From a virus, in IMG/VR virus record IMGVR_UViG_3300006916_000046, positions 25,135-89,134 of that record: a stretch of 64,000 nt of DNA. One strand, written 5' to 3'. The translations under genes were made by a program, and so were the position numbers. Under the pieces are notes generated by a model. That model saw only the letters and a list, made by a program, of their open reading frames with translations, made no database searches and was not told the DNA's origin. How positions within the stretch are numbered: position 1 is the first letter of the stretch; each line of letters starts with the position of its first letter. This document shows, piece by piece, positions 3,684 to 56,918 of the stretch.

Positions 3684-3755
3684 GGGAGTGTCGCATATTG
3701 GTTAATGCCCATGCCTTATAAGCGTGTGAACCGAGTTCAATTCTCGGCATTCCCA
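3684..3755 (+). tRNA. tRNA-Ile (anticodon UAU)
   Basis: A full cloverleaf: acceptor stem GGGAGTG/CATTCCC, D-stem GCAT/ATGC, anticodon stem CATGC/GCGTG with loop CTTATAA (anticodon TAT), T-arm CCGAG-TTCAATT-CTCGG, discriminator A. No CCA is encoded. It reads AUA, a codon common in AT-rich phage genes and rarer in the host. Confidence 0.85.
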
Positions 3756-3758
3756 CTT

Positions 3759-3831
3759 GCTCCTTTAGCTCTCTGGTGAAAGCTCTCTGCTCATAACAGA
3801 AGAAAGGTCAGTTCGATCCTGACAAGGAGCA
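3759..3831 (+). tRNA. tRNA-Met (anticodon CAU)
   Basis: Acceptor stem GCTCCTT/AAGGAGC, T-arm GTCAG-TTCGATC-CTGAC, anticodon loop CTCATAA (CAT). The D-stem has one C-A mismatch and the anticodon stem has one end mismatch. It begins 3 nt after tRNA-Ile. CAU could also be an Ile2 tRNA if C34 is modified to lysidine; elongator Met is the simpler call. Confidence 0.8.
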
Positions 3832-3834
3832 CTC

Positions 3835-3906
3835 GGGTGATTGGCGCAGAGGTAGCGCAGTAGATTTACATTCTATTGGTCACTGGTTCGAATCCAGTAT
3901 CACCCA
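3835..3906 (+). tRNA. tRNA-Val (anticodon UAC)
   Basis: Acceptor stem GGGTGAT/ATCACCC, D-stem GCGC/GCGC, anticodon stem GTAGA/TCTAT with loop TTTACAT (TAC), T-arm ACTGG-TTCGAAT-CCAGT. It lies 3 nt from the preceding tRNA, so the cluster is transcribed together. Confidence 0.88.
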
Positions 3907-3910
3907 CCTT

Positions 3911-4193
3911 GCGAGTATGGTGGAATCGGTAGACACACCAGACTTATGAAAATTGAGCCTCATTTGAGAAATCTTATGAGTGTAACTCCTCAAATTCGGG
4001 GAAACCTGTAAAATGGCAATCCCGAGCCAAGCATCGCAAGATGAAGGTGTAGAGACTAGACGGGGAGCACCTAAACCGAAAGGTATGGTGAAGGGATAGT
4101 CCAGACCACAAACCGTAAGGGCAAGGAAACTTGTAGTGGTAAGAAAATCTGTTGACCATTGCGGTCGTGGGAGTTCAAGTCTCCCTACTCGCA
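3911..4193 (+). tRNA. tRNA-Leu (anticodon UAA) interrupted by a group I intron
   Basis: Exons 3911-3945 and 4144-4193 join to an 85-nt class II tRNA. It has acceptor GCGAGTA/TACTCGC, a D-loop containing GGTAGA, anticodon loop CTTAAAA (UAA), a long variable arm (GACC/GGTC stem) and T-arm GGGAG-TTCAAGT-CTCCC. The interruption falls between U34 and A35, the position of the cyanobacterial and plastid tRNA-Leu(UAA) intron. There is one mismatch at the base of the anticodon stem. No CCA is encoded. Confidence 0.88.
3946..4143 (+). ncRNA. Group I self-splicing intron in tRNA-Leu
   Basis: 198 nt with no ORF. The 5' exon ends in U and pairs with an internal guide (AGACTT with GAGCCT, giving the U-G wobble of P1), and the intron ends in G. 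P7 is visible as GACTA (4054-4058) with TAGTC (4097-4101). Around it are the conserved AGAGACTAGACGG and AAGGGATAGTCC blocks, and between them lies a P8 hairpin with a GAAA loop. AATCCCGAGCC near 4020 fits the Q (P4) element. The core and insertion site match the cyanobacterial tRNA-Leu intron (IC3 type). Confidence 0.85.
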
Positions 4194-36990: not shown

Positions 36991-37794
36991 TTAACTCTCT
37001 TCTCTATACCATCTGCAACCCTTCCAACTATATCTGGAAGGGTTTTTTAATGCCTTCGTTACACCTGTAGCTTTGCCGCTACCTAACACTCTACCCGCTT
37101 CTCTTATACTATCAAAGTGATATATGATTTTCCCGTCTAATATACGCTTGCCATAGATTTTATGGGAGTAAGGTCTATTATCTAATTTCTCCCACTTATA
37201 TCCATATGCCACAATCTTCTGTTTGATTGCTCTACTGATGTTGCCAGAACCTCCTTTGATTCCTATACTCTTCCGCGCTTCAGTTATGCTATCAAATTCA
37301 AGAACTTCTCCCGTCTCGACATTAGTTGCTCTGACTTTTCTCCTAGCATGTTTACCATCACCGCTCTTATCTCCGAATGGATTAACCCCTTGATATTTGT
37401 CTTTTAGAGTATTACGTATTGAAGCAATATGTTCAGGAGACTTTTCTTTCCCTTGCATAGTTGTTGATATTCTATCCCGAACTTCTTCGCTTATCTCTTT
37501 TGCTTGTTCTCCGCCTGTTGTTAGATTGTATCCGTTGTTAAATGTATCAAACTGTTCTATCCAATATCTCTCCCTATCCGAGAGTTGCGCCGCTGGGATA
37601 TTAGTTTCTATTTCACGGACAGTAAACATAGAGACGCCATATTTCTTGATTGCTCTATACAATGGTCTGTGTGATTTACTCTTCGATTCTGTTATATGAT
37701 GCCGCCATCTTTCGCCCACGGTCTTGATAGTCTGACCGATATATCTCTTGCCATTTACCTTACAAATGATTGAGTAGATTGTCCCAGTTGTCAT
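36991..37794 (-). CDS. GIY-YIG homing endonuclease with NUMOD domains
   Basis: 267 aa on the minus strand, the only convincing antisense gene in the window. TIYSIICKVNGKRYIGQT is the GIY-YIG signature (here IYS...YIG), with the catalytic Arg/Glu region downstream. NUMOD3-like (EEVRDRISTTMQGKEKSPEH) and NUMOD1-like (FDSITEARKSIGIKGGSGNI) DNA-binding units follow. It is a free-standing mobile gene of a type common between phage genes. Its C-terminal codons contain the terminator hairpin of the + strand gene at 36641. Confidence 0.9.
   Translation of the reverse strand: MTTGTIYSIICKVNGKRYIGQTIKTVGERWRHHITESKSKSHRPLYRAIKKYGVSMFTVREIETNIPAAQLSDRERYWIEQFDTFNNGYNLTTGGEQAKEISEEVRDRISTTMQGKEKSPEHIASIRNTLKDKYQGVNPFGDKSGDGKHARRKVRATNVETGEVLEFDSITEARKSIGIKGGSGNISRAIKQKIVAYGYKWEKLDNRPYSHKIYGKRILDGKIIYHFDSIREAGRVLGSGKATGVTKALKNPSRYSWKGCRWYREES
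37017..37048 (+). terminator. Intrinsic terminator
   Basis: A perfect 10-bp stem, AACCCTTCCA (37017-37026) with TGGAAGGGTT (37035-37044), 8-nt loop, then a T run to 37048. It ends transcription of the gene at 36641 and lies inside the coding sequence of the opposite-strand endonuclease. Confidence 0.85.
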
Positions 37795-38946: not shown

Positions 38947-38968
38947 TTGATAGTTACCGTGCGGGGAG

Positions 38969-38997
38969 TTGACATCAGTCTCTTCCCGTATTATAAT
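38969..38997 (+). promoter_or_regulatory. Perfect consensus sigma-70 promoter
   Basis: TTGACA (38969-38974), 17-bp spacer, TATAAT (38992-38997): both hexamers are exact. The strongest promoter in the window. No sizeable ORF follows within 250 bp. Confidence 0.85.
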
Positions 38998-39003
38998 GAG
39001 TTT

Positions 39004-39169
39004 ATATCAGTGAATGAGCAGTGTTTTGCGCGGTTCGTTGATATCGCCCGGCGGGCGTTGTCCCCGTATATAAAAATCCATCACTACCCTAACCTACAGA
39101 GGTGACAAAATGCGAGCTAAATATAAAAACTGAAAAAAAATTTTGAGGGGCTGAGAAGTCCCTTTTTTA
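39004..39169 (+). ncRNA. Candidate small RNA between promoter and terminator
   Basis: About 165 nt from the expected start of the consensus promoter to a terminator. It contains a GC-rich hairpin (CGCCCGGCGGGCG near 39047-39059) unusual for this AT-rich genome. It also has a 7-codon ORF (39110-39133, MRAKYKN-stop) with an AGAGG ribosome-binding site, so it may be a leader/attenuator instead. Inference from arrangement only. Confidence 0.5.
39146..39169 (+). terminator. Intrinsic terminator
   Basis: GGGGCT (39147-39152) pairs with AGTCCC (39157-39162, one G-T), GAGA loop, then a run of six T. Good Rho-independent terminator. Confidence 0.8.
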
Positions 39170-39252
39170 GTTTTTTATAAAATTTGATATATAATTTTAA
39201 GATGTAAAACAAATTGAGTAAAAAAATTTCCGAAAAAATTTTTGAGGACCCT

Positions 39253-43628: not shown

Positions 43629-46600
43629 ATGGCAGAACAAAGAGTTAAGGTTAGTCAAATTGTTTCTAATCAACTTCCCGAATATGTAAGACTACAATAT
43701 CCACAATTTGTTCAATTTTTGACGCAGTATTATCAGGGTCAGGAATATCCAGGAGCTCCTCTTGACTTAATACAAAATATAGATTCATATATTAAAATAA
43801 ATGAGAATGGAAATACTGTTGGTTTTACGTCTCTTTCTAATGATATTGATGTTATTGACAATTCCATTCAAGTAGATAATACTAGTGGATTTCCTGAAAA
43901 ATATGGATTATTAAAAATTAATGATGAAATTATCACATATTCTGGAACAACTTCAACTTCATTTACTGGTTGTGTACGTGGATTTAGTGGTATTACTTCA
44001 TTTACATCATCAGACAATATAGAAGATCTTGTATTTTCAAATTCAGAGGCATCTTCACATTCTGAGGGCGATAATGTTGAGAATTTAAGTAGATTATTCT
44101 TACAAGAATTTTTTAAAAAGATAAAAAAACAATATCTATATGGACTAGGTGATCAAAAATTAACGGATAATTTAAATAAATCCCAATTTATCAGGAGTGC
44201 GAAAGATTTTTATTCAATAAAAGGAACTGATGCTTCGTTTAAAATTCTTTTTAAAGCACTTTTTGGCGAAAACGTTGAAATAGTTAGGCCATCGGACTAT
44301 GTTATTTCACCTTCAAATGCCATTTATCAAAAAACAAAGGATTTAGTAGCAGAATTTATATCTGGAGATCCATATGATTTAGTTAATAAAACTCTTTATC
44401 AAAGTGGTGATGAAAATATACCGGAAGCATATTCGCCAGTTTCAAATGTAGAGAAAATATCTACTGGTTCATTAAATAAGGATTATTATCGAATAACCAT
44501 AGATGGTTCTTATCTCAAAAAAGAGGGATCAAATACAGAATCAATATATGATAATTTTTCAATACACCCAAAAACAAAATGTATTGGTGAGATTGGTATT
44601 GGACAAACATTCATAGATGTTGACTCTACAGTAGGATTTCCAAATTCTGGCTCTTTAGATGTTGTATATAATGATTTCACTACGGATACTATCACATATT
44701 CAAACAAGACAATTAATCAATTTTTGGATGTATCAGTAATATCTAAAAGAATTTTAGATGGTTCTGATATAGATTATTCATCCTTTGCATATTCTGCTGG
44801 ATTAGGTAGAACTGATGGGATTAAATTAAGAATAAGATCGGTGATAGGTGGATATAATATTCCAAAAGTAACTTATCAACAAAATATTGGTTCTAAGATA
44901 AAAATAAAATCTTTAGGAAAAATTGGCAATAAACTTAAAGAAAATAATTGGATATTTAACAATTCCCAATCATATAATGTGGAGTCTTTGGAATTAATTG
45001 ACTCTAGAAATTTCGTTTATAGATTAACAACTATTGATGATAATATTCTAAGAGTTGGCGATACTTTGAGATTAAAATCACTAAATGATGTATTTTTAAC
45101 TGATGATTTTACAGTTACAACGATAATTAATAATAAAATTTCTTTAATACGTGGAAGTGACGTTGAAAATCCCAACGGAATAGTAAGTGTTAATAGAATT
45201 TTAAATAAAGTTAAAACTAATATACACCCACAACTTAGTAAATTTACTGCAAATGTTCAAAATGTTTATATCGATAATGATGATGATAGTGTTTTAGTAG
45301 CTTCAAATTCTTTGCCGTATTTTGAGTCACCTACAAATCCAGATATTCAAAAAATAATTCTTTCTGGTTTAGTTGCAAATAATCAAACTACACTTAAAGT
45401 TACTGAAGATTTTGATCATAATTTTTTCACTGGAGATTCAATTTATTATACTCCAAATAAAGATAATAATGGTAATGTGATTAGTAAAATTTTTGATGAA
45501 GGTTTATATTTTGTTCATAGAGTTGATTCTAATAATGTAAAGTTGGCAAAAAGTGGATCTGATTTATATAACGAAAAATATGTTACAATTGATGATCTTT
45601 CCGGAAAAGCAAACGTAGATATTACTAATCATATTATAGAAAAATATGCATTTAATGGGAAGATTATTGAGCCGCAAAAATTAATCAGAAAAATTCCCAA
45701 TATCCATAATCAGAGAGATGATGAAGTAAATGAAAAGTCACTTGCCACTAAAGCAGGGGCTACTGGAATTTTTATAAATGGTGTTGAAATTTTAAATTAT
45801 AAGTCTCATAGTTATGTGCATTATGGAGAAATTGAAGAAATTAATCTTACCTCCCCTGGTTTTGGATACGATGTGATTAACCCACCACTATTATCAATTT
45901 CAGATTCTGTTGGTAGTGGAGCCACTGGAGTCTGTGGCGTGAAAGGAAACTTTGTAGATATTGATTTAATCGATGGGGGATTTGATTATCTTGATATTCC
46001 ATCTATTCAAATAACCGGTGGAAATGGAAAATCAGCCAAAGCATCTGCAAATACAACGTTTGTAGATCATACACTCTCATTTGATTCCTCCAATCTACTC
46101 GACATTTCTGTAGATTTTGAATTGAGATCTGGTTTTGGTGGAATTTCAACTGAAACATCAAAAATTGGATTTTCAACATATCATAGATTTAAGAATGGAG
46201 AATCTGTAGTATATAAAACTCTTGGAGGAAATGCAGTCACAGGATTGTCAACGGATTCAACATATTATGTAAATGTAGTTAATGATTATGATATAAAGTT
46301 ACATTTATCTAAAGGAGATGCATTAGCATCCTCTGGAACTGGTATTAATACAATTTCTTTATCGGATTTTGGAACGGGTAATCATTCTTTTACTGCAATA
46401 CCAAAACTATCAGTTTCTTCAATAAGAATTATTGATCCTGGATTTGATTATGAAAATAAAAAGAGAATGTGTTCATCAGCGGGTATTAATACTTCCATCA
46501 ATACGATAGATATACTAAATCATGGGTATAAAACTGGCGAAATAATTAGATATTCTTTTAATGAAACATCTATTGGAGGTCTTTCTACAACAAAGGATTA

Positions 46601-49600
46601 TATAGTAACAACTATTAATAATGATTCCTTTAAATTATCTGATGTTGGAATCGGTTCTGATTTAAAATATTTGTATTTTAATAGAAACGTCTTTAAAAAT
46701 TTAACGTCTTCTGGTTCGGGATTACACACTTTCAATTATCCAGAAATTTCTGTAAAAGTTATTGGAAAAGTTGGAGTAACTTCTATAGGTGAAGATACTT
46801 TTGAAGCTAAAGTTCAACCAATAGTTCGTGGTGAGTTAACTTCAATACATTTAACTAATAATGGACAAAATTATGGAACTAGTAGAATCTTAAACCTTAA
46901 AAGATTGCCAAAGGTAAGTTTAATTAGTGGAACTGATGCTGCACTAAAACCTGTCATACTAAATGGACAAATTGTCAATGTCGTAATTTTAAATTCTGGA
47001 AAAGATTATACATCTATACCAGATTTGATTGTACGTGGTACAGGAACATCTGGAAAATTAGTACCGATATTAAAAGATGGTGCTATTGTTGATGTTAAAA
47101 TATCCAGACCTGGCGTTGGATATGAGCAAAATTCCACATCAATTGAAGTGTTGCCGGCCGGCAATAATGCAGAATTTGAATCAGTAATTCAATCGTGGAG
47201 AGTGAATGAGGTTCGAAAAAATCTATCAAATGTCAAGGATGATGATATTTTTGTTTCTCCTAGTATGAATGATGGCAAAGGATTGCAGTGTTATTTTGCT
47301 TATGGCCCAAGAAATTTAAGAAAATTAGTATATTCCACTGATAGGGGTGGGAGAATTTTGTATGGTAGAAATGATCTAAGAATTGTGAATGGATTAGAGT
47401 CTAGCAATATAAACCACTCACCAATTATTGGATGGGCATATGATGGAAGTCCGATATATGGTCCATATGGATACAAGACAAATAAAGGAACTGGAGGAGT
47501 AACACAACTTAAGAGTGGTTATACATTAAAGTTATCCCCCAATAGACCTCCATTAGTAAATTTTCCTGAAGGATTTTTTGTTGAGGACTTTGAGTGGAGT
47601 TATTCTTCTTCTGAAGATACTCTTGATGAAAATAATGGAAGATTTTGCATAACACCAGAATTTCCAAATGGAATCTATGCGTATTTTACAACTTTTGACG
47701 CAATACCATCAGAGGATGGGGTATTTAAAAATTTTAAAGCACCCACATTTCCATATGTAATTGGAAATTCATATCATAAAACTCCAGATGAGTTTAATTT
47801 CAAAAAAAGATCAAATCAGGATGATATAAATTTAAATGATTTTAATATAAGTAGAAATACATATCCATATTTGCTGTCTAATGATAATAGTGGTTATGAT
47901 TATCTGGTAGAATCTTACAAATTTACCGATCAAGATCCTACTATTACATCAGTAAATAGGGGAAATATTACATCAATTGGTATTGTTAGTGAAGGTATAA
48001 ATTATCAAGTTGATGATACAGTCGTTCTTGACGCATCGACCACCTCTAGAGATTTTGGGCAAAGTAACAAAGTTTCTCTGATAGGAGGAGTTGGTGTATC
48101 TTCAATATCTTGCGAAACCTTTATCGTACCAAACTTAGAATTTTATCCAAATGGAAGCACTGTAGTAGCTGTACACACTACTAACCATAATATTAGTAAT
48201 AATGAGGCATTGAATGTAGTTGGACTGAGCACTGAAAAATACATTAAACCGGGTCAGTATACTGTTGGTATTTCTTCATTAACATTTGAACTGCAAAATA
48301 CTTTAAATGCTCAAAATATAACCGGAATTGTTACTTACATAAACATTAAGGCTAATACAACTTCATTTTTCTCAGACTTAAAGTTTGTAGAACCAAATGA
48401 TGTATATAATTTATATGCAAATAAGACGTATACTGAATCAGTTCGTGTTCTTCTCCCACAGGTCGGAACTGCAATTACAAGCAAGGCTTTGGATCCTGAA
48501 AGCAATCCTACAAGATTTACCGATGCTGCCGTATATGACTATATATGGGATAATTATGATGAATTTGATGTTGATGGTGATGGAGTAGTTTCTTTTAATG
48601 ATGCGATAGTTATAGTAAGACACCTGTATGGAGACGAGGTTAAGGAAAGGGGTGCTTTTTCTGGAAATCGTATTTTTTCTACAGGTGGCGGTATTAGTGG
48701 AATTGGTTATAGTGGTGTGCCGGCCGCCGCCACAAGAACTACCAACAGAGAAGTGAGAGATTTCTTGGATTTCAGATCTTTTCATTCTAGGGAAGGTAAT
48801 ATTGGAGTTTCTACAAATGTAATTACTGGTATACAAACGGGATATCTTTTTTATGGATCAGATCCAGATAATGTTGTTCGTGGAAAAGTTAGTATTGGCC
48901 AATCCGTCAACAGTACATTTGTGGCTGCTGGCACTACAGTGACTGCTATTGGTAAAAATTCTATTACTATCAGCAACACTACAACAAATACAGAAACTCA
49001 AGTAGGAACTTCAATTACATTTGGAAATGGATTGTATGATGTTGATGGTAATGGTCAAATAACTGTTTTTAGTGATGGCATAATGATAGCTAGAGTTTTT
49101 GGCCCTAGTGAATTTAAAAATCCATCTGATAATGGCATAGCTGGTTTTGCTACTGATAATACAATTTTTGATACTCTTAAGGTTTTAAATATAGATCCAG
49201 ATTTGGGAAGAATTAGAGTATTACGAACAGGTAATGGAACATATAGTGGTGTATTTGGTTCTAACAGTGAACTTGTAGAAAGATCTAGAAAAGTAGAGAT
49301 TCCATTCATTGGAATTTCAACAGTTAATGACTCAAGAAAAACCTATGAGTATTATTTTAATCCTACAGAATCCATAGGAATAGGGGAAGACATTAGTGCA
49401 GGTGCAGGTACTACAATTACATTTACGAATCCTGGTGCTGGCCAAACTCAGGTCTTTGTTCCAACCAGAGCAATTTATCTTCCATATCATACATTAAGAA
49501 CTGGTGATAAAGTTGTATATAAGACAAATATTGGAGATACAATAGGTGTATCTACTGTTAGTGGAGGTTCTAGTGTACCTCTTACCCAATATTCCGAGTT

Positions 49601-52600
49601 ATATGTTGGAAAAATAAATGACAACTTTATTGGACTTTCTACAGTAAAAGTTTCTGCGGGAACAACGGATGGAATTTTTGTTGGGGTTACACCAGAAACA
49701 GAGCATCATGAATTGCTCTATTTTGTTGGGTTGGGGACAGGTGTATATCACAGTTTAACATTTAATAATCCAGACACAGTAACTGGTAATTTAGAAAAGA
49801 ACATCGTTACTGTTTCAACTTCAAGTACGCATGGATTATCTCTTCTTGATAATGTTTTTGTTGAAGTAAAACCAAATATTAATGAAACAATAAAAGTAAA
49901 ATATAACAAGAGTATTAGAAAATTAATTGTCAATGAATATGATTATGTCACATCAGGAATTTCTTCCGAAAATAGAACAATTTCTATAACAGATCATAAA
50001 CTTTCAACAGGCCAAAAAGTTATTAATTTTTTAAATACATCTATTAATGATGATTCTTTTAAAGATGAGGGAGAATATTATGTATACGTTGTTGATAGAA
50101 ATACAATCAAGTTAACAAATGAAAAATATGAATTATTCGAAAAAACTCCATCATTTATTGGACTTTCTACTCTTTCTTCAGGATCTTTATCTTTAATAAA
50201 TCCCCCCTTAAATCTAGTTAAAAATTCTACGGTTAAATTTGATTTATCGGATTCTTCGTTATCTTATGTTCAAAATAATATTTCATATTCAGCGTTTAGA
50301 TTTGATTTTTATAGAGATTCTAGTTATAAAGACATATATGTTACTAATGAGTTAAATTCATTATTCGCAGTATCTTCTGAAGGACAAATTGGAGTAACTG
50401 CAGGTGCAAATTATACATTGACAGTCAATGATAATACTCCAAATAGACTTTACTATAAATTAACTCCCATTGATTTAAATCAAAATGTAATAGAAAATAA
50501 ACAAATTTCCGTAGATAAAGAAGTAGAATTTTTTAATTCTATTTTTCCAATAGATAGTGATTATTCTGGAAAGCATACGGTTACTGGAATTGGATCTACA
50601 TCTTTTTCATATTTACTTTCAGTAAAACCAGAAGCATCTGCTTATATTTCAACAAACACATCACTATCATATAATACTACATCATCTAGTGCATATGGAC
50701 CAATAAAAAATATATCTGTTGGTAATGGGGGCAAATATTATTCAGAAATTCCAGGAATTTCTGAAATAGTGACTGGAATAGGAACTGGAGCTATTCTTAA
50801 TGTCTTCAGTGACAGTATTGGTAAAATTAATTCAGTAAGAATTGATGATATTGGATTTGATTACCCATCAGATTTAACTTTAAAACCTGAAGTATACATT
50901 CCACAAATATTAAGAGTTGAACAATTATCAAAGTTTAAGTCAATTAGTATAATCACAGATACTCAAGGTGCTACAGGGCCCACTAATATTTTTAGACACA
51001 ATATACCACCAAAACTTGTTGTAGTTGATGGAATTACTAACAAAGTTGTGGATGATGCAATTTTGAAAATGAATCTACCTGAAAAAAAGGTAGACATTCT
51101 TCAAAATACATTTTCATTATCTGATGCTATACCAAAATTAATTCCTACAGAAAATGTAACTGGAATTGGATTCACTTCTTTAACATATGACATTTCAACC
51201 AAGGAAGTCACTGTTTCTTTGACTAACGCTCAAGGACCAAAATTTGCAAATCTCAATCAAAATACCACCGAAGATTTTGTAAATATTAGAGTTGGTGATA
51301 ATGTTTTAGTAGAAAACGTAAGTGTTGGAGTAGGAACTACTGGAACTGGATATAATTCTTCAAATTATAATTACAAATTATTCCCAGTGGTAGGTGTTAC
51401 TACTGCAACAGGAATTGTTACATTTAGTATGAGTAGTGTTATTGAGGACGATTATAATCCAGGTAAATTTATTAGTAATTTATCTTCACCTTCATTATTA
51501 CCAGAAAGACTATTTCCAAAGTTCTCTATAGAGTTAGATAAAACTGGATTTAAAGAATCCGAAATTGTGAAGTCTGGTTCTAAGACAGGAAAGGTAATAA
51601 AATTTGATAGTTTCAATAAATTAGTTCATATTGAAAGCGCAGACGAATTTTTTATCAATGATACGTTAATTTCAGAATCCTTCGGAACAAAAGCTATAGT
51701 AAAAGATAATACTTTCTTTGAAAGTAGATTAGATTTAGACTATTATTCTATAATTGGAAGAAAATGGTCAAACACCACAGGTTTTATAAGTGATAATTTG
51801 CAAAGGGTACATGACAACGACTACTATCAATATTTTTCATATGCAGTAAAATCTAAAATTGGTATTGATAAGTGGGATGAAAGTGTAAGTACTCTTAATC
51901 ATGCTGCAGGATTTAAAAAGTTTAGTGATTTACAAATTGAATCTTCGGTCCCAACTTCTTTGAGTATGAAACCAACGATTGAAGAAGTTACTACCGTGTT
52001 TATTACTCTCGATAATATTGTAGATTTGAACTGCTATGATAACTTTGATTTAGTTCATGAAAATTTACTTATTTCTGATGGTAATAGGACATTTTCAAAT
52101 GAAATTAATTTTACATCCACAATCTTAACAGATTATGATGAATCTATTTCAAATAGAGTAGTTAATATTGATGATGTCAGTGGAGAGTTTAATAGTAATC
52201 CAAGATCAACACCATTTTCGGAAATATTCAGAACATTAACAGAAGACACAAGATCTCAAAAATTTATCACATACGTTAGAGATAGAACTTTTGTTGGAGA
52301 AAGGCAATTGATGGTGGCCACTGTTCTAACTGATACTGATCGCGCCTTAGGCATGATTAATCAATATGGAACTGTCTATACTCAATCTGATTTAGGATCT
52401 CTCGATTATGTGATTGACGGCAATGATGGTGTGCTTCGTTTTTATCCGACAAAATATCAATATAATAATTATAATGTTTCGTTCTTTGCATATTCTTTAG
52501 AAGATATAGTATCAATATCAACAGTATCTTCATCGCATACTGTAGGAATTTCTTCAGAATTAGCAGGAAAACCTCAAGGAAGTATAGCCAGTATAGGATC

Positions 52601-55600
52601 TTCCGAAATACTTACAGTTGGTACTGCGGTTACAAATTTAGTGGTCATTTCGGGTATTGGAACTACCCTTCCTAGTGTTAGGTCTGCAAAAGTTTTAGTC
52701 AATATTGAAGTCGATGATGGTCAAACTGAATTTAATGAACTTAATGTTATTCATAATGGAACAGATGCACATCTATTAGAATTTGGTCAACTAAATGCAC
52801 ATTCAATTGATACTTTTGGATCATCTGGTCTTGGAACATATGGTGCATCAGTTTCTAGTGATAATGAATTGATAATTGAGTTCACTCCATCAGTAGGACT
52901 TGGAACAACTGCAGTAATTAGTGCAAATACTATTACTGTGGGTCTCTCTACAGAAATCTATAATAATCAAAATTCTGGACTTGGTTCTGAGTCTACATTA
53001 AGTTCGGGAACATTAATAACAAAATGTACAGAATTAATAGGTGGTTCTGCAGAGTCTGTTGCAGAATTTTCAAGTGAGTTTGATGCTGCGTATTCAATTA
53101 TTCAAGTTGCAGATCTTGATAATGATATGTATCAAATGTCAGAGGCTATCATTGTTTCTGATGGAACAGATGCTCACATTACAGAATTTGGAAATGTAGA
53201 AACTAATCATAGTTTGGGTGAAATGACTGGAGGTGTTAATTCAGGAATAACCCAGATTACATTCACTCCTGCTGCTGGAGTTGGAGATCTTCATGTCAAA
53301 TCATTTACACATGCAATTAAAGTGGATACTGGAACTGATTCTGGAGAAATTGATTTAGATAACTCCAAATTGATAACAAATTCAGGAACTTACACTGGAA
53401 CTGAATTAGATGTTAGAAAAGATTTTGAAATTCTCCATAAAACATATCCAGTATTTAAGAGAGTATTTGATGGATCTGACAGCAGTTTTGTTGATGTGGT
53501 CAATAATAAAATTATTCTACCATACCATTTCTTTACAACAGGAGAGAAAGTAGAATACAGACCTAAAACAGGAATTGGTACTAATAGTATAGGTATTGAT
53601 GATATAACTGTTGGAAGTGGTACTACAGATAAATTACCAACTACAGTATATGTAATTAAATTAAGTGAAAGTGAAATTAGATTTGCACAAACCGCTGAAA
53701 ATGCCCTTAAACCTTTCCCAGAACCAATTACAATAACTTCAGTTGGAATTAATAGTGATCATAGCATAACTTCAACTAATCAAAATCAGAGAGTATTAAT
53801 TTCTATTGATAATTATATACAGTCTCCTATAGTTTCTACATCAGTAACAACATCTTTAGCAGATCAAGTTTTGATAACAGAGGATTCCGTCAAATTCTCG
53901 GGAATAACTTCGTTCTTTAGTGGTGATTATATTAAGATTGATGATGAAATCATGAGAATACGTGGAGTTGGTATTGGTTCCACTAATGCAATTACGGTCT
54001 TTAGAGCCTGGGCAGGAACCTCACTTGCTGGACACTCTACGGATAGTTTAGTTACAAAGATCAAAGGAAATTATAATATTATTGGAAATACACTAAACTT
54101 TATTGAAGCTCCTTTTGGCAATAATCCAATAAGTTCTACAACTAATGCACCATCTGAAAGAGATTGGGAAGGTATTACTACATCATCTTCATTCCATGCA
54201 AGAGCGTTTATGAAAACGGGTGTTGTTGGAGCTACCACAGACACATATGCAGGAAACTACATATTTGACGACATTTCTCAAAACTTTAGTGGAAGTGAGG
54301 ACACTTATATAATAACTTCAGGAAATTCAAATGTTGTAGGAATCTCTACTAATAATGCGATAGTATTGATAAATGGTATTTTACAAGAACCAGGACTTAA
54401 TAATGATTTTACTATAACTGAAGATTCTGATGTTGGAATAAGTTCTATTAAATTTACGGGAACAGCGAGTGCCACTTCTACTGATCCAAATTCACTTAAT
54501 GTTCCTGTAGGAGGTATTATAGTTTCTGTAGCCTCATCTAGAGGACTTGGATATCAACCTTTAATATCTGCAGGTGCAACTGCTGTAATTTCAGTTGGAA
54601 ATACTGTTGAATCTATTACTATTGGAAATACTGGTTCTGGTTATAGATCAAATAACATTTATGAAATTGAAACAACAACAAAATATTCTGTTGGTGTAGG
54701 ATCTACTAACATTTTACTTTCAAATACTAATAGTGCCCTTAATGTTATTAATTTGAACACAAGTTCTACTAATACTATTGCAATTGGTACATACATTAAA
54801 GAAACAACATCTATTGTTTCTATAGCAAATACATTTGTTGGTATTGGTTCCACTTCTCCATATGAAATACCTGCAGGCACTTCAGTGAAGATTCAGATAG
54901 AGAATCCGGATGTCGGTATTGTAAATGTTGGTGTTGCTACGACTTCTTTGGGTATTGTGAATGTAACTCATGTCGGTTTTAGTACAATAAATGCAGGATT
55001 TGTTACGTCTGTGACAATAACAAATGGTGGAGATGGATTCTCATCAACAAATCCCCCATATGTAATATTTGATGAACCTCTCCCATATTCCAACATACCT
55101 TTAGTTTATAGTGAAACTTCTGTTGGAAGTGGAGGAACACAGGCAAAAGTTAATATTACTGTTGGACAAGGTTCTAGTGTGATTGATTTTGAAATCATTA
55201 ATCAAGGTTATGGATATGGTCAAGGACATGTGCTTACCATTCCTACAGGAGGTATTACCGGTATTCCTACAGATTCTTCAATTGGAACATCATTTGAAGA
55301 ATTTAAATTGACAATACAAGAAACATTAACTGATGAATTTTCTGCATGGTTTATCGGTGAAATAGAACCACTTGATGATTTCTCCGATCTTTTTGATGGA
55401 TCCAGAAAAACATTCTCATTATTTAGATCTGGAAATAGATTGTCAGTTCAGTCTGATTATGGATCAATTGTAAACGTTGATGATGTCTTAATTGTTTTCA
55501 TTAATGATATTTTACAAATTCCTGGCGATTCCTATACATTTAGTAGTGGAAGCACAATTACTTTTAGTGAAGCTCCAAAATCCGGAGATAGATTAAAGGT

Positions 55601-56918
55601 ATTGTTCTATAAAGGAACGAGTGGAACTGATGTATTGCCAAAAGAAGTTACTAATGAAGTGCATGAGGGTGATGAGTTAATAATAAATTATGATAAATCT
55701 TTAAATCAAAACAAATTTAATCAACAAGACAATAGATCTGTTTATAGTGTACTTAGTTCTGGAACAGTTAAAACAAATTCATATTATGGTCCAGGACTAT
55801 TATCAGACTCTTCTATTCATAGACCTGTTACTCTTTGCAAGCAAACTGAAGATAAAATGATCGAAGGGTTTGTAGTAAATAAAGATCGTGAGCAGTATGA
55901 ACCAATCATTTTCCCCACAGCACATTTAATTACTAATATTGGAATAGGTTCTACAATAGCATTTGTTGATAATATTCGACCATTCTTCAATCCATCAAAT
56001 GAAGCATCTAATTTAGATTTCCAAAATGATATAATTATTGTAGAAAATGGAGAAAAGGTTTCTGCAGCTGCTACTGCAATAGTTGGAGATGACACTCTAA
56101 TTCAATCTATTGTTATTTCTGAAAATGGTGTTGGTTATAGTACAGCAACTGTGAGCATTGCAAGCACTGATGGTACTTTGGGTGTTGGAACAACAGCAGT
56201 AGCTAAAGCATACGCTATTATAAGTATTGGTGGAACAATAAATTCCATAGCTATTACAACATCTGGAATAGGTTATACGAATACAAATCCACCATCAGTG
56301 TTAATTTCGCCACCACAATTTGAACAAGAAACTAATAAAGTTGTATCTTTTGAAGGCGATTTTGGTATTATTGTTGGTGTTGGAACAACTAATGTTGGGG
56401 TTTCTACTGGAATAGCATTTGATTTAATAATACCTCAAGATTCTTATTTGAGAGATACTTCAATTGTCGGAACTGCAACAACATTAACAGGATTAAAAGA
56501 GGGTTATTACTTTACTGTCTTTAATTCAAACGTTGGATATGGTGTGACTTCACTTGATGAAAATAATGAAATAGTTGGAATTGGAACCACTTGTTTAGAT
56601 AATGTTTATAGAGTTTCTGGAATCACCACTGCTCTTGAAAGAGATATAATAGGATATGGTTCAACTTATGTGACACGAGTTATTGTTAGCATTTCGACTT
56701 ATTATGGATTGGATAGTGATATTCCATCTCCAGATCAAGTTGTTTCCGGATTTACCACAGATTTCTTTGGTAAATATAGTTGGGGAAGGTTAATGCTTTC
56801 TCAAAGAACTGGAGTAATAACTTATTCAGCACAAACAAATAATGGTGTTGTTGGAATTAATACTGGATCTTTTGTGAGGAGAAAAAATTCTTTAAAATTT
56901 AGAAATTATACCACATAA
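43629..56918 (+). CDS. Giant wedge protein in the gp7 position
   Basis: 4429 aa, over four times T4 gp7 (1032). The N-terminal ~200 residues (LPEYVRLQYPQFVQFLTQYY, YSIKGTDASFKILFKALFGE) are the conserved wedge-attachment part. The rest is beta-rich fibre-like sequence. GWAYDGSPIYGPYGY near residue 1268 is YHYH-domain-like. DVDGDGVVSFNDA near 1647 and DVDGNGQITVFSD near 1804 are EF-hand/dockerin-like calcium loops, 157 residues apart. Late-gene location between gp6 and gp8 fits T4 wedge order; the extra domains suggest added host-contact functions. Sequence similarity to T4 gp7 itself was not checked. Confidence 0.75.
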   Translation: MAEQRVKVSQIVSNQLPEYVRLQYPQFVQFLTQYYQGQEYPGAPLDLIQNIDSYIKINENGNTVGFTSLSNDIDVIDNSIQVDNTSGFPEKYGLLKINDEIITYSGTTSTSFTGCVRGFSGITSFTSSDNIEDLVFSNSEASSHSEGDNVENLSRLFLQEFFKKIKKQYLYGLGDQKLTDNLNKSQFIRSAKDFYSIKGTDASFKILFKALFGENVEIVRPSDYVISPSNAIYQKTKDLVAEFISGDPYDLVNKTLYQSGDENIPEAYSPVSNVEKISTGSLNKDYYRITIDGSYLKKEGSNTESIYDNFSIHPKTKCIGEIGIGQTFIDVDSTVGFPNSGSLDVVYNDFTTDTITYSNKTINQFLDVSVISKRILDGSDIDYSSFAYSAGLGRTDGIKLRIRSVIGGYNIPKVTYQQNIGSKIKIKSLGKIGNKLKENNWIFNNSQSYNVESLELIDSRNFVYRLTTIDDNILRVGDTLRLKSLNDVFLTDDFTVTTIINNKISLIRGSDVENPNGIVSVNRILNKVKTNIHPQLSKFTANVQNVYIDNDDDSVLVASNSLPYFESPTNPDIQKIILSGLVANNQTTLKVTEDFDHNFFTGDSIYYTPNKDNNGNVISKIFDEGLYFVHRVDSNNVKLAKSGSDLYNEKYVTIDDLSGKANVDITNHIIEKYAFNGKIIEPQKLIRKIPNIHNQRDDEVNEKSLATKAGATGIFINGVEILNYKSHSYVHYGEIEEINLTSPGFGYDVINPPLLSISDSVGSGATGVCGVKGNFVDIDLIDGGFDYLDIPSIQITGGNGKSAKASANTTFVDHTLSFDSSNLLDISVDFELRSGFGGISTETSKIGFSTYHRFKNGESVVYKTLGGNAVTGLSTDSTYYVNVVNDYDIKLHLSKGDALASSGTGINTISLSDFGTGNHSFTAIPKLSVSSIRIIDPGFDYENKKRMCSSAGINTSINTIDILNHGYKTGEIIRYSFNETSIGGLSTTKDYIVTTINNDSFKLSDVGIGSDLKYLYFNRNVFKNLTSSGSGLHTFNYPEISVKVIGKVGVTSIGEDTFEAKVQPIVRGELTSIHLTNNGQNYGTSRILNLKRLPKVSLISGTDAALKPVILNGQIVNVVILNSGKDYTSIPDLIVRGTGTSGKLVPILKDGAIVDVKISRPGVGYEQNSTSIEVLPAGNNAEFESVIQSWRVNEVRKNLSNVKDDDIFVSPSMNDGKGLQCYFAYGPRNLRKLVYSTDRGGRILYGRNDLRIVNGLESSNINHSPIIGWAYDGSPIYGPYGYKTNKGTGGVTQLKSGYTLKLSPNRPPLVNFPEGFFVEDFEWSYSSSEDTLDENNGRFCITPEFPNGIYAYFTTFDAIPSEDGVFKNFKAPTFPYVIGNSYHKTPDEFNFKKRSNQDDINLNDFNISRNTYPYLLSNDNSGYDYLVESYKFTDQDPTITSVNRGNITSIGIVSEGINYQVDDTVVLDASTTSRDFGQSNKVSLIGGVGVSSISCETFIVPNLEFYPNGSTVVAVHTTNHNISNNEALNVVGLSTEKYIKPGQYTVGISSLTFELQNTLNAQNITGIVTYINIKANTTSFFSDLKFVEPNDVYNLYANKTYTESVRVLLPQVGTAITSKALDPESNPTRFTDAAVYDYIWDNYDEFDVDGDGVVSFNDAIVIVRHLYGDEVKERGAFSGNRIFSTGGGISGIGYSGVPAAATRTTNREVRDFLDFRSFHSREGNIGVSTNVITGIQTGYLFYGSDPDNVVRGKVSIGQSVNSTFVAAGTTVTAIGKNSITISNTTTNTETQVGTSITFGNGLYDVDGNGQITVFSDGIMIARVFGPSEFKNPSDNGIAGFATDNTIFDTLKVLNIDPDLGRIRVLRTGNGTYSGVFGSNSELVERSRKVEIPFIGISTVNDSRKTYEYYFNPTESIGIGEDISAGAGTTITFTNPGAGQTQVFVPTRAIYLPYHTLRTGDKVVYKTNIGDTIGVSTVSGGSSVPLTQYSELYVGKINDNFIGLSTVKVSAGTTDGIFVGVTPETEHHELLYFVGLGTGVYHSLTFNNPDTVTGNLEKNIVTVSTSSTHGLSLLDNVFVEVKPNINETIKVKYNKSIRKLIVNEYDYVTSGISSENRTISITDHKLSTGQKVINFLNTSINDDSFKDEGEYYVYVVDRNTIKLTNEKYELFEKTPSFIGLSTLSSGSLSLINPPLNLVKNSTVKFDLSDSSLSYVQNNISYSAFRFDFYRDSSYKDIYVTNELNSLFAVSSEGQIGVTAGANYTLTVNDNTPNRLYYKLTPIDLNQNVIENKQISVDKEVEFFNSIFPIDSDYSGKHTVTGIGSTSFSYLLSVKPEASAYISTNTSLSYNTTSSSAYGPIKNISVGNGGKYYSEIPGISEIVTGIGTGAILNVFSDSIGKINSVRIDDIGFDYPSDLTLKPEVYIPQILRVEQLSKFKSISIITDTQGATGPTNIFRHNIPPKLVVVDGITNKVVDDAILKMNLPEKKVDILQNTFSLSDAIPKLIPTENVTGIGFTSLTYDISTKEVTVSLTNAQGPKFANLNQNTTEDFVNIRVGDNVLVENVSVGVGTTGTGYNSSNYNYKLFPVVGVTTATGIVTFSMSSVIEDDYNPGKFISNLSSPSLLPERLFPKFSIELDKTGFKESEIVKSGSKTGKVIKFDSFNKLVHIESADEFFINDTLISESFGTKAIVKDNTFFESRLDLDYYSIIGRKWSNTTGFISDNLQRVHDNDYYQYFSYAVKSKIGIDKWDESVSTLNHAAGFKKFSDLQIESSVPTSLSMKPTIEEVTTVFITLDNIVDLNCYDNFDLVHENLLISDGNRTFSNEINFTSTILTDYDESISNRVVNIDDVSGEFNSNPRSTPFSEIFRTLTEDTRSQKFITYVRDRTFVGERQLMVATVLTDTDRALGMINQYGTVYTQSDLGSLDYVIDGNDGVLRFYPTKYQYNNYNVSFFAYSLEDIVSISTVSSSHTVGISSELAGKPQGSIASIGSSEILTVGTAVTNLVVISGIGTTLPSVRSAKVLVNIEVDDGQTEFNELNVIHNGTDAHLLEFGQLNAHSIDTFGSSGLGTYGASVSSDNELIIEFTPSVGLGTTAVISANTITVGLSTEIYNNQNSGLGSESTLSSGTLITKCTELIGGSAESVAEFSSEFDAAYSIIQVADLDNDMYQMSEAIIVSDGTDAHITEFGNVETNHSLGEMTGGVNSGITQITFTPAAGVGDLHVKSFTHAIKVDTGTDSGEIDLDNSKLITNSGTYTGTELDVRKDFEILHKTYPVFKRVFDGSDSSFVDVVNNKIILPYHFFTTGEKVEYRPKTGIGTNSIGIDDITVGSGTTDKLPTTVYVIKLSESEIRFAQTAENALKPFPEPITITSVGINSDHSITSTNQNQRVLISIDNYIQSPIVSTSVTTSLADQVLITEDSVKFSGITSFFSGDYIKIDDEIMRIRGVGIGSTNAITVFRAWAGTSLAGHSTDSLVTKIKGNYNIIGNTLNFIEAPFGNNPISSTTNAPSERDWEGITTSSSFHARAFMKTGVVGATTDTYAGNYIFDDISQNFSGSEDTYIITSGNSNVVGISTNNAIVLINGILQEPGLNNDFTITEDSDVGISSIKFTGTASATSTDPNSLNVPVGGIIVSVASSRGLGYQPLISAGATAVISVGNTVESITIGNTGSGYRSNNIYEIETTTKYSVGVGSTNILLSNTNSALNVINLNTSSTNTIAIGTYIKETTSIVSIANTFVGIGSTSPYEIPAGTSVKIQIENPDVGIVNVGVATTSLGIVNVTHVGFSTINAGFVTSVTITNGGDGFSSTNPPYVIFDEPLPYSNIPLVYSETSVGSGGTQAKVNITVGQGSSVIDFEIINQGYGYGQGHVLTIPTGGITGIPTDSSIGTSFEEFKLTIQETLTDEFSAWFIGEIEPLDDFSDLFDGSRKTFSLFRSGNRLSVQSDYGSIVNVDDVLIVFINDILQIPGDSYTFSSGSTITFSEAPKSGDRLKVLFYKGTSGTDVLPKEVTNEVHEGDELIINYDKSLNQNKFNQQDNRSVYSVLSSGTVKTNSYYGPGLLSDSSIHRPVTLCKQTEDKMIEGFVVNKDREQYEPIIFPTAHLITNIGIGSTIAFVDNIRPFFNPSNEASNLDFQNDIIIVENGEKVSAAATAIVGDDTLIQSIVISENGVGYSTATVSIASTDGTLGVGTTAVAKAYAIISIGGTINSIAITTSGIGYTNTNPPSVLISPPQFEQETNKVVSFEGDFGIIVGVGTTNVGVSTGIAFDLIIPQDSYLRDTSIVGTATTLTGLKEGYYFTVFNSNVGYGVTSLDENNEIVGIGTTCLDNVYRVSGITTALERDIIGYGSTYVTRVIVSISTYYGLDSDIPSPDQVVSGFTTDFFGKYSWGRLMLSQRTGVITYSAQTNNGVVGINTGSFVRRKNSLKFRNYTT

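Follow-up and report, generated by a model that had tools for sequence, protein, structure and literature searches.

Does the perfect promoter at 38969-38997 of this cyanophage DNA lead into a small RNA or an attenuated leader, as originally predicted, or does the stretch behind it carry some other function? The window, by which we mean the whole 64-kb stretch analysed, is part of an 89-kb contig of a T4-like cyanophage whose relatives in the phage collection are Kyanoviridae. The sigma-70 (early-type) promoter TTGACA-17-TATAAT on the plus strand matches the consensus at 12 of 12 positions, as claimed, and it is the only such match in the window, where 0.13 are expected from mononucleotide shuffles. 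A transcript likely starts from it. The positions of promoter and terminator predict an RNA of 39004-39169 on the plus strand, and in the window's lineage the transcript may end near 39169. The intrinsic terminator (39145-39169, plus strand), with its stem at 39145-39164 followed by TTTTTTAGTTTTTT, is also found where it was predicted, and so are the GC-rich hairpin CGCCC-GGC-GGGCG (39045-39057, plus strand) and a 7-codon ORF (39110-39133, plus strand) with the ribosome-binding site GAGGTGA ahead of it. The terminator segment 39130-39172 folds well (-13.0 kcal/mol, z -2.5), and the number of terminator-type sites in the 6-kb region scanned is unremarkable (3 against 3.2 expected). The fold of 39004-39172 (-42.5 kcal/mol, z -1.6) gains slightly over shuffles, and that of 39004-39084 is no better than shuffles (z -1.07). 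Elsewhere in the window, 3684-4125 holds tRNA genes for Ile-TAT, Met-CAT and Val-TAC and, within 30 bases after them, a match to a group I intron (63 bits, 3936-4125).

The RNA features are not shared by the relatives. A terminator-like site after the conserved box described below is found in 1 of 110 loci, the window itself, against 2 of 110 in shuffled sequence, so the terminator belongs to the window's lineage only. A start codon stands at the place of the 7-codon ORF in 6 of 121 loci (ATG in 3), and the ORF is judged accidental. The covariation term of RNAalifold is 0 in six of six alignments, relatives show no consensus structure upstream of the box, where the GC-rich hairpin lies in the window, and Rfam 15, at gathering and relaxed thresholds, gives no credible match in the interval. 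The idea of a promoter reading into a functional non-coding stretch holds; as the conserved function, a small RNA is rejected, and so is an attenuated leader that encodes a peptide. Hairpin conservation was expected to outlast that of the primary sequence, and it is a sequence box that is conserved instead. A ~165-nt RNA ending near 39169 in the window's lineage is possible as a by-product, a primer or a regulator. The mechanical ORF list also holds a 52-aa ORF with a TTG start (38947-39105) that spans the region. Its frame meets a stop within the box in 76 of 110 loci and is open for at least 45 codons in 11 of these 76, and it is therefore not taken as a gene.

When the interval was compared by BLAST with 50,697 phage records, mainly its middle was matched in relatives. 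A 55-base query around this middle finds 302 records at E <=10, and 286 of them are named Synechococcus, Prochlorococcus or Cyanophage; gene-25 matches under the same three names number 458 records, so that 286 is a lower bound and 458 a loose denominator. The matched core is a 24-bp box, ACTACCCTAACCTACARAGGTKMC = ACTACCCTAACCTACAGAGGTGAC, at 39083-39106 on the plus strand of the window. With at most 3 mismatches it occurs once each, on the same strand, in 8 of the 9 records searched whole, in which its reversed control is never found. In the remaining record, S-SCSM1, the left end of the copy has diverged. The neighbourhood is shared: the box lies in a gap before small genes, a few kb upstream of the baseplate gene 25 and on the same strand. 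In Syn9 it is at position 53503. After gp25 and a presumed gp6 the window continues with a single open frame of 4429 aa (43629-56918), and relatives have here a gene whose annotation reads virion structural protein or baseplate protein.

At least 120 IMG/VR stretches were retrieved via an exact 17-mer, and therefore invariance at those positions proves nothing. Because of this bias, 13 isolates of 13 genera were chosen independently of the element, by gene 25 or by name: Syn9, S-PM2, S-SRM01, ACG-2014f, Syn1, P-TIM40, S-CAM9, S-H9-1, S-WAM2, ACG-2014j, S-SSM5, S-H34 and ACG-2014e. Some were picked after the first BLAST listing, so the sample is element-blind and not random. A profile built from 107 non-redundant copies of the element matches 8 of the 13 with E<0.01 and three more weakly (S-CAM9, 0.07-0.08; S-H9-1, 0.25; S-PM2, 0.9-1.1). 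In ACG-2014f the element was recognised by eye alone, and the 6 kb ahead of gene 25 in S-H34 show none. With another profile, to which some diverged copies were added, S-H9-1, itself not one of them, reaches E 3.7e-4. A gene-25 query of viral contigs yields 9 loci, of which 4 extend far enough upstream and all 4 carry the element, three of them (L150, L153 and L154) being hardly independent since their gp25 is identical to that of the window. The box, present in nearly all Kyanoviridae examined, most likely belongs to a single, family-wide cis-acting element. A small hairpin within it, ACCT-ACAR-AGGT, was considered and dropped: it is invariant in the profile set, which was retrieved by a pattern covering most of the hairpin, and is broken by eye in diverged copies.

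The box, which the original prediction did not mention, is one part of a longer arrangement. In family coordinates, where 0 is the C following the first A of the box, an A-tract at -11 to -8 (ATATAAAAA, 39068-39076, plus strand in the window) is A in 96-100% of 107 loci. Further positions at fixed spacing are T19 (98%), C22 (99%), G28 (99%), and A37 and T38 (93-96%); all of these, like the A-tract, lie outside the retrieval pattern. At a fixed distance from the box, the hexamer at +38 to +43 (TATAAA, 39122-39127, plus strand) agrees with TATAAT at 5-6 of 6 positions in 52 of 107 loci; shuffled sequence gives 1 of 107. If it serves as the -10 element of a second promoter, the box covers about -48 to -28 and is centred near -38 relative to the predicted start site. 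The strong promoter upstream is conserved as well. On the plus strand, 69 of 101 loci have a sigma-70 promoter matching at least 10 of 12 positions at -190 to -20, and in 21 the match is perfect; the same scan finds 3 of 101 on the minus strand, 2 of 101 in shuffles and 5-30 of 77-105 in eight control windows. Base composition changes at the A-tract, being G/T-rich ahead of it, C/A-rich in the box and 25-26% GC at +30 to +75. This last segment has the lowest duplex stability in the family, the property that marks the A+T-rich unwinding element of an oriF-type origin. In the window the candidate unwinding region is the A/T-rich stretch around the terminator (39118-39250), with 89% A+T at 39118-39145 and 83% at 39165-39250, a level reached by 0.03% of 86-base windows. 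CAGT is frequent ahead of the box (208 against 45.8 expected), and little weight is placed on this excess since CAGT is by eye also common in other spacers of the region.

Grouping the first downstream ORF of each of 123 loci gives sets of 35, 29, 26, 7, 4 and 3 and smaller ones, a few of the ORFs being probably spurious as their choice was mechanical. The element is thus kept while the downstream genes change, so it probably acts for itself and not for one gene, which leads away from an ordinary leader. Some lineages show further detail. In Syn9 (L148 5464-5482), S-WAM2 (L290 4453-4475) and S-H9-1 (L289 ~2393-2413) a hairpin of a G-run and a C-run, with CAGT in its loop, comes immediately after the -10-like sequence, so the early RNA would start with the hairpin. 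In the window (39165-39250) and S-SCSM1 (L009 2177-2400) there is by eye an apparent second TATATAAT-like site ~60-100 bases downstream with a hairpin between the two sites, which looks like a duplication of the element's right half.

What could such an element do? According to the accessible text of PMC3016281, T4 oriF and oriG take up ~100 bp. Their promoter has a -10 hexamer and, in the -30/-35 region, a box for an activator; an A+T-rich unwinding element follows, where an R-loop formed by the oriF transcript very likely primes synthesis. The parts of the cyanophage element follow in the same order, and we therefore favour, tentatively and with doubts of nearly equal weight or slightly more, the reading that the interval is the window's copy of an oriF-like replication origin of Kyanoviridae. 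Starting at the strong promoter upstream, the host sigma-70 polymerase would read across the site early in infection. A box-recognising protein would set the second promoter, made of the conserved box in the -35 region and the -10-like hexamer. RNA running into the A/T-rich stretch may stay annealed as an R-loop, which would open the duplex, and could then serve as primer for a leading strand that grows towards gene 25. Host DnaA, bound 0.5-1.3 kb upstream, might assist in several lineages. The single copy per genome, the promoter that reads into the box, the box near -38, the unstable stretch and the unrelated downstream genes all argue for an origin, as do the DnaA-box words enriched upstream in part of the family, the place of T4 oriF beside gene 25 and the theta origin predicted for Syn9. 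The likeness of place to T4 is loose, because in the T4 record oriF (115321) lies 83 bases from gene 25 (115404-115802) and beyond it in the direction of transcription, while the cyanophage element comes before the gene. Cumulative GC skew gives the origin no support: in six genomes there is no minimum at the element, which counts against it, and in 5 of the 6 the maximum lies 4-13 kb upstream.

The possible link to DnaA comes from the sequence upstream. The word TTTTCCACA, given as the species-specific DnaA box of cyanobacteria in the available parts of PMC4674748 and PMC10225481, is the most widespread 9-mer between -1400 and -130 of the box, occurring there in 42 of 104 loci. It is found 110 times in 115 kb upstream against 13 times in 257 kb downstream, with at most 10 copies for each single-base variant. 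Its density per 250 bases and locus is 0.36-0.46 at -1000 to -500 and 0.00-0.04 beyond +250. Among loci with at least 1.3 kb of upstream sequence, 33 of 69 have one or more copies near the element, mostly 0.5-1.3 kb upstream, and many copies come in pairs, inverted with a spacing of 23 or direct with one of 12 or 21. The enrichment is upstream, as just 4 of 107 loci have the word within +25 to +130. In whole records, we compared the words lying directly behind the box or up to 1.4 kb ahead of it with the record total: S-ShM2 has 4 of 7 there, P-SSM7 4 of 6, Syn33 3 of 5, Syn9 2 of 4, S-SM2 2 of 3 and S-SCSM1 1 of 1, and the other 10 of the 16 whole records, the window's included, have none near the element. 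Three copies in a row lie 5.9 kb upstream in S-PM2, and three at 3.4 kb in Syn1. The TTTTCCACA words are a real, lineage-limited feature, and their reading as putative host DnaA sites is plausible. The marine picocyanobacterial hosts WH7803, RCC307 and SynAce01 all have DnaA; none of the three genomes has a TTTTCCACA cluster at dnaN, and this, like the restriction of the word to some lineages to the exclusion of the window, counts against an origin. Upstream of the element the window has two-copy repeats only, and loci without TTTTCCACA have no other repeated 9-mer in common. In the 1.4 kb that precede the box in such loci, TGAGAATCA occurs 7 times in L073, and ATCACGAAT 3-4 times in L071 and L083, possibly as other iterons. 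The window encodes a GIY-YIG homing endonuclease with a NUMOD1 domain (36991-37794, minus strand) some 1.3 kb ahead of the element, at the place of the DnaA-box clusters of relatives.

A promoter-like unit beside A/T-rich DNA could also be just a promoter. The box would then bind an activator, from phage or host, in the -35 region of a dedicated promoter or early-to-late switch that just controls the transcription unit leading to gene 25, with no part in replication. We consider this rather unlikely: it is unusual for a genome to use a regulon site just once, the downstream gene differs among lineages, and the -10-like match is partial in about half of the loci. Such an activator-dependent promoter would agree with the fixed spacing of box and hexamer, with the early promoter ahead of the box and with the place of the box, from which a long run of genes on the same strand starts. 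Some copies resemble late promoters instead, CTAAATA at +33 being exact in 9 of 107 loci and ATAAATA being visible by eye in S-PM2 and Syn1.

Function in RNA is less probable still, and we rate it as quite unlikely. The interval would encode a non-coding RNA or RNA leader in which the box, left unpaired, is a site for a protein or for base-pairing to a second RNA, appearing as a discrete RNA of ~165 nt in the window's lineage. Conservation of the promoter on a single strand, the terminator in the window and hairpins near the 5' end in some lineages, for example S-WAM2, are what one would expect of it. The lack of covariation and of an Rfam match and the terminator in a single locus are not, and the box matches the three host genomes no better than reversed controls do; its fixed spacing to the A-tract and the -10-like hexamer is a feature of DNA type. 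Very improbable, finally, is a pausing or antitermination site, comparable to ops or nut, where the box, in the form of RNA or of non-template DNA, would act on polymerase as it passes and cause read-through of later terminators. A promoter ~60-160 bp upstream on the same strand, a sequence conserved on one strand and the head of a long gene run suit this mechanism, which predicts neither a -10-like hexamer at fixed spacing nor an A/T-rich stretch.

The oriF-like origin may be part of a wider scheme that we regard as doubtful, in which one family-wide Kyanoviridae origin would combine the box and its putative initiator with a dedicated promoter and a primer transcript in the unwinding region, several lineages being coupled to DnaA through TTTTCCACA. 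A review states that a single theta origin was predicted for Syn9 (PMC2984593). The full-text literature searched, which mostly leaves out subscription papers, yielded no description of the box among work on cyanophage origins, intergenic elements, promoters, small RNAs and DnaA boxes, and no paper that locates a replication origin by sequence in T4-like cyanophages; a prior mention of the box is possible. The core letters CCTAACCTACA occur there in papers that concern human, mouse or rat by their title or the start of their abstract, and in no phage paper. Among the viruses of the sunlit ocean, T4-like cyanophages are abundant. A family box found once per genome offers a precise, testable origin candidate, a way towards the putative protein that recognises it and a stable reference point when Kyanoviridae genomes are compared or oriented. 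If the DnaA link is true, viral replication in some lineages would be tied to the host initiation protein; if the family-wide origin is true, T4-like phages would include ones with a single defined origin tied to that protein.

As far as the accessible text of the papers cited here goes, several known systems share traits with the element. The cyanophage RNAs CfrI, PhotoRC-II, wcaG, manA and the glutamine riboswitch are likewise conserved, non-coding and from the same phages (PMC9964418, PMC2864571), but the interval has no Rfam 15 match to them and no conserved RNA structure. The promoter early stem-loop cassettes (PeSLs) of T4-like phages also have an early promoter followed by hairpins, as seen in some of our lineages; they are dense in shuffling regions (PMC4503421), whereas the cyanophage box is found once per genome. 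Cyanobacterial oriC resembles several lineages in the clusters of exact TTTTCCACA upstream of the element (PMC4674748, PMC3480399, PMC10225481), and differs in that the word is missing from about half of the loci and from the window, and in that the box is unrelated to DnaA boxes. T4 oriF, or ori(uvsY), shares with the element an A+T-rich stretch within a few kb of gene 25, and the box with its -10-like hexamer would correspond to the activator-type promoter that oriF holds in its ~100 bp. Unlike oriF, the cyanophage element has an extra strong sigma-70 promoter upstream and a single site per genome, and in place of the MotA box of oriF it carries the family-wide 24-bp box.
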